Shown here piece after piece: positions 25,166 through 25,957 of a DNA stretch of 62,567 nucleotides. Both the position numbers and the translations under genes were made by a program. Location of the stretch: IMG/VR virus record IMGVR_UViG_3300042924_005627, positions 1-62,567 of that record. One strand, written 5' to 3'. A model generated the notes under the pieces. The model did no database searches, was not told the origin of the DNA, and worked only from the letters and a program-made list of their open reading frames with translations. Origin of the DNA: a virus. The first letter of the stretch is position 1; each line of letters begins with the position of its first letter.

Positions 25166-25195
25166 TTGACTATATAGGATGAATAGGGGTATAAT
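25166..25195 (+). promoter_or_regulatory. Sigma70-type promoter of the riboswitch-like unit
   Basis: TTGACT at 25166-25171, 18-base spacer, TATAAT at 25190-25195. Transcription would begin just before the CGTTCATC segment at 25206 and could run to the terminator at 25931-25957, making a self-contained four-gene unit. Confidence 0.7.
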
Positions 25196-25205
25196 AATCC
25201 CCTAA

Positions 25206-25459
25206 CGTTCATCCTATGACTAAAGCACTTTTGCTTTTAGCATGGGTTCCACTTCTTTCTATTTCTACGCCACAACTTGCACAAACTAATAAAGTTACAA
25301 TAAGTTGCGACGCAGCGTGGGAACTTATGGACATCGTTAAAAACGACGATGTAGTAGACCAAAGAAAAGAAGACCGATTGCTATTAGAACTCCGAAAGGA
25401 TGTTTTGAAACTTAAGTGCTAAACAATTCAATAGGACGGAAGTAAGCCGACTCGGAACG
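25206..25459 (+). promoter_or_regulatory. glnA/Downstream-peptide riboswitch-like element 1 (split)
   Basis: The 5' part CGTTCATCCTAT (25206-25217) and the 3' part ATAGGACGGAAGTAAG ... GGAACG (25431-25459) can pair as P1 (CGTTC/GAACG) and P2 (TCCTAT/ATAGGA). GGACGGAAGTA is, from memory, the hallmark core of glutamine-binding glnA/Downstream-peptide aptamers. Unusually, a whole 68-codon gene lies in the P2 loop and its ATG is in the 5' P2 strand. Fold is by eye; ligand binding is untested. Confidence 0.45.
25216..25422 (+). CDS. Small exported protein
   Basis: 68 residues with a clear signal peptide: MTK, a hydrophobic core (ALLLLAWVPLLSISTP) and a likely cleavage after QLAQ or nearby. The mature part of about 45 residues is charged, with two Cys that could form a disulphide. 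Its start codon overlaps the 5' strand of the riboswitch-like element, so translation may depend on the fold. Confidence 0.6.
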   Translation: MTKALLLLAWVPLLSISTPQLAQTNKVTISCDAAWELMDIVKNDDVVDQRKEDRLLLELRKDVLKLKC

Positions 25460-25462
25460 GAT

Positions 25463-25631
25463 CGTTCATCTATGGAAACACTCATTCTAACGTGCTTACA
25501 AGCACAGTTAATTTCTGGAAGAGTTCATCAACAAGAACTCCCTAGACAAGCAAAGAATGATTTAATTTGGGAGATTAAACAAATCTCACCAAAAGAGTGT
25601 AAGATAGACGCAAAAGCCGACTGAAGGAACG
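25463..25631 (+). promoter_or_regulatory. glnA/Downstream-peptide riboswitch-like element 2 (split)
   Basis: A second copy: CGTTCATCTAT (25463-25473) and ATAGACG ... CTGAAGGAACG (25604-25631) can form P1 (CGTTC/GAACG) and P2 (TCTAT/ATAGA). GAAGGAACGC is the typical 3' end of these aptamers, but the core is GACGCAAAAG rather than GACGGAAGTAG. A 50-codon gene fills the loop. GAACG-GAT-CGTTC (25455-25467) also links copies 1 and 2 as a tight hairpin. Confidence 0.4.
25472..25624 (+). CDS. Unknown protein, 50 aa
   Basis: METLILTCLQAQLISGRVHQ begins in the 5' strand of riboswitch-like element 2 and ends in its 3' strand. A Leu-rich N-terminus and basic middle; two Cys. No ribosome-binding site stands out upstream, consistent with structure-dependent translation (inference). 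Confidence 0.5.
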   Translation: METLILTCLQAQLISGRVHQQELPRQAKNDLIWEIKQISPKECKIDAKAD

Positions 25632-25663
25632 CTCTTTAACCTAAACAACTAAGGAGAACCCTA

Positions 25664-25828
25664 ATGTCTAAAGTCGTATACCGTGGTGTTGAATATGACA
25701 CCAACGACCGCCCAAATCAAACTTTGAAAAGAGAACCTCATGTAGAAATCTATCGTGGAACAATGTTCTGGGTAGATGAAAATGGAAACAAATTCTCTAT
25801 GGAAAAGTCGGGAGGTAAAGTAAAATGA
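25664..25828 (+). CDS. DUF4278-like small protein
   Basis: 54 residues. VVYRGVEYDTN at the start and IYRGTMFW in the middle are the two YRG segments of the DUF4278 type known from cyanobacteria and their phages; function unknown. AAGGAG at 25651 is its ribosome-binding site. It is the first gene after the complete riboswitch-like region, hence the best candidate 'downstream peptide'. Confidence 0.65.
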   Translation: MSKVVYRGVEYDTNDRPNQTLKREPHVEIYRGTMFWVDENGNKFSMEKSGGKVK

Positions 25829-25926
25829 ATACTTACTTCGTTCGTTATCTCAAGAAAAAAGCAAAGAAAGAAAAACTTCTTAAAGCTGCACAACTTAATA
25901 TGGCAAAGCAACCACAAATTGCTTGA
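25825..25926 (+). CDS. Tiny basic protein, 33 aa
   Basis: Very Lys-rich helical peptide (RYLKKKAKKEKLLKAAQL) coupled by ATGA to the DUF4278-like gene and followed 5 bases later by the terminator. Its charge suggests RNA or membrane binding; function unknown. Confidence 0.5.
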   Translation: MNTYFVRYLKKKAKKEKLLKAAQLNMAKQPQIA

Positions 25927-25930
25927 AGTA

Positions 25931-25957
25931 AAGGAGGGTTTACACCCTCTTTTTTTT
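25931..25957 (+). terminator. Rho-independent terminator
   Basis: GAGGGT-TTAC-ACCCTC stem (25934-25949) followed by eight T. It closes the promoter-riboswitch-gene unit that starts at 25166. Confidence 0.85.

Follow-up and report, generated by a model that had tools for sequence, protein, structure and literature searches.

Glutamine riboswitches are described as switching downstream genes on with glutamine, among them a DUF4278 gene in picocyanobacteria (PMC6316151, PMC6698751). In the glutamine-I or glnA family (RF01739; PMC2864571; PMC6698751), the conserved parts are arranged as CGUUCA-P2-CGGAAGUA ... GAAGGAACG, with a covarying P2 whose loop spans a few nucleotides and a P3 that is a 3-bp hairpin; the bases that contact glutamine are C1-G59, G22, and C58 (PMC6698751, summarising the bound structure of Ren et al.). 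Glutamine riboswitches also occur in tandem, with 157 doublets and 4 triplets recorded (PMC9481103). Their presence in phages is already known, glnA-type elements having been reported for the marine phages S-CREM1 (PMC9964418) and methylophage Melnitz (PMC9004378); the accessible text of those two reports describes neither a loop gene nor nesting, unlike the locus considered here. A second family, glutamine-II or Downstream-peptide (RF01704), has a CGUUCA...GGAACGG heart and depends on a pseudoknot whose own P2 lies downstream of GGAACGG.

Here, glutamine-riboswitch (glnA, RF01739) sequence was found in pieces at positions 25206-25632 of a 62,567-nt viral sequence (the window, meaning the whole stretch analysed; all window features lie on the plus strand); two of its P2 loops are filled by genes, one of 68 aa and one of 50 aa. 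The best overall explanation, held at a probability of roughly 0.6, is a composite glutamine-I riboswitch with two nested cores and genes in its loops; considered separately, the structural part of this reading, a nested two-core composite whose P2s enclose genes, is very probable. The element resembles glutamine-I riboswitches in its order of parts and covarying P2, its long-range pair after the core, its ligand-contacting bases, and its place upstream of nitrogen-related or DUF4278 genes, but its P3 helix joins a second, permuted core, and its P2 loops can hold a gene of ~49-69 codons. With the glutamine-II family it shares the CGUUCA...GGAACGG heart, a C-G long-range pair in the inner core, small downstream genes, and DUF4278, whereas the pseudoknot with a downstream P2 was not seen in the window. 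As in tandem glutamine riboswitches, two adjacent cores would be expected to act together; here, however, they are nested and share P3. In the literature searched, no permuted or gene-bearing glutamine riboswitch was found, an earlier remark on P2 insertions being possible (Klahn 2018, Ames and Breaker 2011), nor was any paper on DUF4278 in cyanophages; the nested architecture with loop genes thus appears to be new.

Structured RNAs with a protein gene next to them or in one of their loops have precedents elsewhere. Group I introns carry homing-endonuclease genes in peripheral loops, and HEARO/OMEGA-type RNAs have an associated gene. Those RNAs serve mobile elements as ribozymes or guides, whereas here the RNA would be a metabolite sensor, with the start and the end of the gene forming strands of its own helices.

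A preliminary description, made from the window alone, had proposed an RNA resembling a glutamine riboswitch that is split around tiny genes, and this likeness is supported. Each segment it named was found in its place: CGTTCATC is present at both 25206 and 25463, CGTTCATCC starts at 25206 and CGTTCATCTATGG at 25463, GGACGGAAGTAAGCCGACTCGGAACG and ATAGGACGGAAGTAAGCCGACTCGGAACG both end at 25459, and ATAGACGCAAAAGCCGACTGAAGGAACG ends at 25631. In the nested arrangement, the outer P1 5′ strand CGTTC (25206-25210) is followed by the outer P2 5′ arm TCCTAT (25212-25217), which covers the first two start-codon bases of ORF1 (25216-25422; 68 aa), and the outer P2 3′ arm ATAGGA (25431-25436) leads into the outer core CGGAAGTA (25437-25444) and the 5′ strand of the shared P3, AGCCGACT (25445-25452). 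The inner, permuted P1 (GAACG-GAT-CGTTC, 25455-25467) precedes the inner P2 5′ arm TCTAT (25469-25473), covering the first two start-codon bases of ORF2 (25472-25624; 50 aa). The inner P2 is extended by ACACTC (25478-25483), which pairs with GAGTGT inside ORF2 (25595-25600), and is completed by its 3′ arm ATAGA (25604-25608). The inner core CGCAAA (25609-25614), the P3 3′ strand AGCCGACT (25615-25622), and the stretch 25623-25632 follow, the last comprising the loop-E strand GAAGG, the outer P1 3′ strand GAACG that it overlaps (25627-25631), and C25632. Long-range partners are G25439 and C25632 in the outer aptamer and G25460 and C25611 in the inner one. The two small genes thus exist within P2 loops with their start codons inside the pairing, as had been claimed, and the P2 pairings proposed earlier hold; the P1 pairings do not, since the strands cross over: 25206-25210 pairs with 25627-25631, and 25455-25459 with 25463-25467.

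Relatives were collected by a DNA search of phage records, 15 of which were read, together with 120 viral contigs. The same locus is present in many T4-like cyanophages as one arrangement in several states: among loci with both halves, the first and second P2 are compact/gene in 54, compact/compact in 34, gene/gene in 24, and gene/compact in 16. Both P2 stems are short hairpins in S-PM2 and S-CREM1, and the record of the latter (L002, the compact/compact form) annotates a glnA riboswitch at the locus. The second P2 alone encloses a gene in S-SRM01, P-SSM2, P-SSM7, and others, and both P2s do so in P-SSM4, P-HM1, S-CAM3, and the window. A scan of genome contigs for copies in hosts relied on an overly loose pattern and gave chance matches in unrelated bacteria. 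Chance likeness of short motifs near small genes could be entertained for the window considered singly, where CGTTCATC is weakly enriched (4 observed against 1.2 expected, equalled in 4 of 100 shuffles) and no Rfam match was obtained. However, the core pattern at 25435-25459 occurs once in the window with 0 expected from shuffles, and the arrangement, found at 175 loci with its parts in one order and its P2 arms covarying, is far above chance; the covariation of P2 and of the long-range pairs refutes this explanation, leaving it a negligible probability.

Rfam searches at gathering and relaxed thresholds gave nothing relevant in the window, because insertions of ~140-225 nt break the model. 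In compact relatives, the RF01739 gathering threshold of 35 was reached at L004, L006, L008, L033, and L088 (35.1-39.4 bits), with others at 33-34. The covariance search advocated in the preliminary description therefore failed for the window and succeeded, at or above gathering, for compact relatives. RF01704 likewise gave no match in the window, and its gathering threshold was reached by one relative only, P-RSM6 (L013; 33.1 versus 33). Of the traits that define RF01739, P1 (CGUUC/GAACG) and a P2 directly after CGUUCA with compensatory changes are present, and so are the core CGGAAGUA opposite GAAGG (loop E) and the long-range pair beside P1, the latter two in the nested topology only; the short P3 hairpin and short P2 loop are absent, P3 joining the second core and the window's P2s holding genes. 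The covariation sought in P1 and P2 was abundant in P2, as compensatory changes, and absent from the invariant P1; P1, CG(C/G)A, and the AAGTA of the first core were fixed by the search patterns, and their conservation is not independent evidence.

The glutamine-contacting bases named in PMC6698751 are present here, and by analogy with the known family glutamine would be the ligand. A structured 5′ element that has lost glutamine sensing, and instead protects the RNA 5′ end or times translation by its folding kinetics alone, would fit the low Rfam scores of the phage derivatives (23-39 bits overall), the departure of both halves from the consensus, and the covarying hairpin that also stands at the 5′ edge. 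However, the outer core preserves its ligand-contacting bases and long-range pair in every case, although a purely structural element would not need them, and a non-sensing element is improbable.

In topology, the element departs from the preliminary description, which saw two separate aptamers. Because the P1 strands are all identical, P1 by itself does not reveal which of them pair. The outer long-range pair, between the base after the CG of the first-half core and the base after the last GAACG, is C-G in 118 and G-C in 57 loci, or 175 of 175; taking the nearer GAACG as the partner would instead create a clash in at least 51 loci. At the inner long-range pair, 166 of the 175 loci have C-G and 2 have G-C (of the 7 unpaired, 3 possibly reflect a wrongly caught core), and the alternative pairing would clash in 55. 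In addition, AGCCGACN and N′GCCGACT form a helix that connects the two halves. Of 128 distinct rows, 127 have T-A, A-T, or G-C as its end pair N-N′ and 1 has T-G; pairing-preserving changes occur at further positions too. On a tree of the downstream gene, which is short, the long-range pair underwent 9 two-sided changes, 3 of them on supported branches (sign test p 0.25), and N-N′ underwent 12 two-sided changes from T to A, 6 on supported branches (p 0.03). Together, the long-range and P3 covariation indicates that the element is one composite: in the proposed fold, the outer aptamer would keep the usual strand order, the shared P3 would be continued by a circularly permuted inner core, and the inner P1 would be closed by a loop of 3-6 nt (GAT in the window). 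Each P2 would be either a short hairpin or the enclosure of a whole small gene, both being gene-bearing in the window; an enclosed gene would start in the P2 5′ arm, with its end, or a few bases after it, supplying or extending the 3′ arm.

Two tandem aptamers were rejected on this long-range and P3 covariation. The usual glnA-doublet reading, in which two independent aptamers each form their own P1 and are each split by a gene, draws on the scoring of the halves by Rfam as separate borderline matches, on the description of glutamine-I doublets as common (PMC9481103), and on the identical P1 strands, which leave P1 undecisive. It would, however, place G/G at the long-range position in 51 and C/C in 55 of the 175 loci, where the nested outer pair has no exception, and it would leave the N-N′ covariation between the halves unaccounted for and each half alone without part of loop E (AGUA or GAA), which is complete, AGUA with GAA, in the outer core only. 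Folding agrees: in five compact forms, the minimum-energy fold is 3.2-4.7 kcal/mol better than two separate P1s, and two of the five show precisely the nested pairing of P1. A point against the composite reading is that, over the window's whole transcript, the energy model does not favour the two-aptamer fold (-111 versus -130 kcal/mol), which was the fold forced there rather than the nested one. Independent tandem aptamers are very unlikely. Some rare variants of the nested composite were also observed. In L020 and L135, G-C replaces C-G in the inner long-range pair, a compensatory change of otherwise fixed bases, and L003 has a C-G at the end of P3 as a rare compensatory variant. Two C.A mismatch positions of the shared P3 (25445-25452/25615-25622 in the window) are almost unchanged across loci; they count against the composite, and their constancy suggests a non-standard pair or a contact.

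The genes within the loops are themselves constrained. The relatives' families have a median dN/dS of 0.26 (loop 1) and 0.21 (loop 2), and the loop genes are under purifying selection. Both sets of loop proteins have a hydrophobic N-terminus and two invariant cysteines, as seen in ORF1. Loop-2 proteins belong to PHROG 504 in 71 of 75 cases and loop-1 proteins to PHROG 6471 in 25 of 39, both families of unknown function; the window's own ORF1 and ORF2 proteins matched neither PHROG 6471 nor PHROG 504, respectively, and Pfam gave no family for the loop proteins apart from one stray match. The ORF2 protein was modelled as a two-helix hairpin (pLDDT 86) that had no significant match in the PDB and whose viral matches were all proteins without known function; the ORF1 model (pLDDT 73) was too uncertain for use.

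The ends of these genes coincide with the parts of the RNA. The AUG lies 9-13 nt after the first base of CGTTC, within P2, in 120 of 120 loop ORFs (10-13 in loop 1, 9-12 in loop 2), and no clear Shine-Dalgarno sequence precedes the loop genes. At the 3′ end, 75 of 79 loop-2 ORFs stop at the same base, with TGA or TAA inside the core GACTRAAGG, so that DAKAD, their final residues, is encoded by the riboswitch core itself; ORF2, ending in DAKAD and TGA, crosses the inner core and stops within the outer core. The corresponding codons of ORF2 are fixed as GAC GCA AAA GCC GAC, and elsewhere in loop-2 genes the same residues mostly or often use other codons (GAC 36/117, GCC 15/168, AAA 95/164); the first Asp and Ala were partly fixed by the search pattern, with Lys, the second Ala, and the last Asp free. 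In loop 1, the stop is the TAA of the core AAGTAA in 20 of 41 genes.

Pairing across the genes is maintained as their sequences change. Among 50 loop-2 representatives (ORFs of <80% identity), P2 is 98.3% paired, with two-sided changes at 4 of 5 pairs and 50 two-sided cells versus 17.5 after shuffling (0 of 500 shuffles as high); among 19 loop-1 representatives, it is 94.7% paired, with 9 such cells versus 2.4. Compared with shuffled partners, the pairing energy of 16-nt arms gave a z of -9.3 for loop 2 (39 ORFs of <70% identity) and -4.6 for loop 1 (11 ORFs), against -1.4 for the ends of ordinary small ORFs. Pairing takes in two or more start-codon bases in 36 of 36 and 55 of 65 distinct arm pairs. 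In whole-element folds of a sample of 42, the mean P2 probabilities were 0.59 and 0.82, versus 0.25 and 0.23 with the interior shuffled; the window's own outer P2 had a probability of only 0.24, a further point against the composite.

These observations bear on whether the composite controls the downstream gene only, with the loop genes as passengers whose end pairing aids folding of the sensor. The P2 loops of glutamine riboswitches can be replaced and were shortened for crystals (PMC6698751), compact forms retain the same downstream gene, and gene presence changes 32 and 38 times on the tree of the downstream gene, a short gene that yields a weak tree. Against passengers stand the placement of the AUG within P2 in every loop ORF and pairing that reaches the codons: past the first five pairs, in the coding ends of loop 2, z was -4.2 against shuffles among the same P2 arms (39 representatives) and a weaker -1.7 in the 16 most distant. 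The AUG position and the codon-reaching pairing, both read from sequence, favour translational control of the loop genes, and the passenger explanation is rather doubtful.

The gene downstream of the element at nearly all loci is represented in the window by ORF3 (25664-25828; 54 aa), which matches PHROG 5049 (E=1e-9) and, as proposed at the outset, is DUF4278-like, scoring 20.3 bits against Pfam PF14105 (E=7e-4), under the curated gathering cut-off of 25.3. Its end is overlapped by ORF4 (25825-25926), encoding a basic 33-aa protein. A possible expression platform lies at 25632-25656, where the ORF3 Shine-Dalgarno sequence TAAGGAG (25650-25656) is able to base-pair with CTCTTTA (25632-25638), competing for C25632; this platform varies between phages. 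With a DUF4278-like gene downstream and a Shine-Dalgarno sequence able to pair with CTCTTTA, an on-switch for ORF3 is the simplest reading. In the mechanism envisaged, glutamine would close the composite and hide the start codons of both loop genes, and the closed, bound form would favour translation of the DUF4278-like gene; conversely, ribosomes loading on the loop genes while the 3′ ends of these genes are still to be transcribed would hold the sensor open. Since the fold buries the ORF1 and ORF2 starts, and the cores have to come apart for ORF2 to be translated, loop-gene expression and the folded sensor would be mutually exclusive. A full reciprocal switch, through which glutamine would set the loop genes and the downstream gene to opposite use, is predicted from sequence and is put forward tentatively, at somewhat less than even odds. 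The same guarded standing is given to the idea that the sensor's helices are built from the ends of genes under its own control, with either ribosomes or glutamine holding the RNA.

The promoter and terminator claimed for this unit were both located. The motif TTGACTATATA (25166-25176) contains the -35 element of a sigma-70-type promoter, TTGACT-18-TATAAT (11 of 12 positions matched, with TATAAT at 25190-25195), and also resembles the T4-late type (CTATATA); an intrinsic terminator at 25930-25953 is followed by a T run. In 127 of 167 loci, a motif like TTGACTATATA is conserved upstream, usually at a distance of 25-29 nt from CGTTC. Directly ahead of the aptamer, the inverted repeat TAGGGG-TATAATAAT-CCCCTA (25184-25204) contains the -10 region. 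Its arms vary between phages yet stay complementary, with arms of at least 5 in 81% of 139 distinct upstream sequences versus 16% after shuffling; its most frequent start is 7 nt past the TTGACTATATA-like motif, and in most cases 0-4 nt separate its end from CGTTC. This repeat may be a 5′ hairpin, P0, of an RNA that begins at a T4-late-like promoter, or a dyad around the -10 region.

If the composite reading is correct, the locus represents a riboswitch layout absent from the searched literature, in which nested cores share a helix and complete genes lie inside an aptamer, their coding sequence being part of the sensor; in that literature, no account of a riboswitch with genes incorporated in such a manner was found. 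It would also provide a testable link from host nitrogen state to phage small proteins (PHROG 504 and PHROG 6471) during infection. Standard covariance models miss the nested form, which makes it invisible to annotation even in P-HM1 and P-SSM4. Some loop genes are unannotated in public records, as in P-SSM2 (AY939844; L008, 1041-1187); in other published phages, they are annotated as hypothetical proteins and the riboswitch is unmarked. In several phages, the glutamine element has a manA RNA (RF01745) a few hundred bases away (L009, 519-704; L013, 1228-1413; L014, 1412-1609; L088, 1071-1268 (minus strand)).
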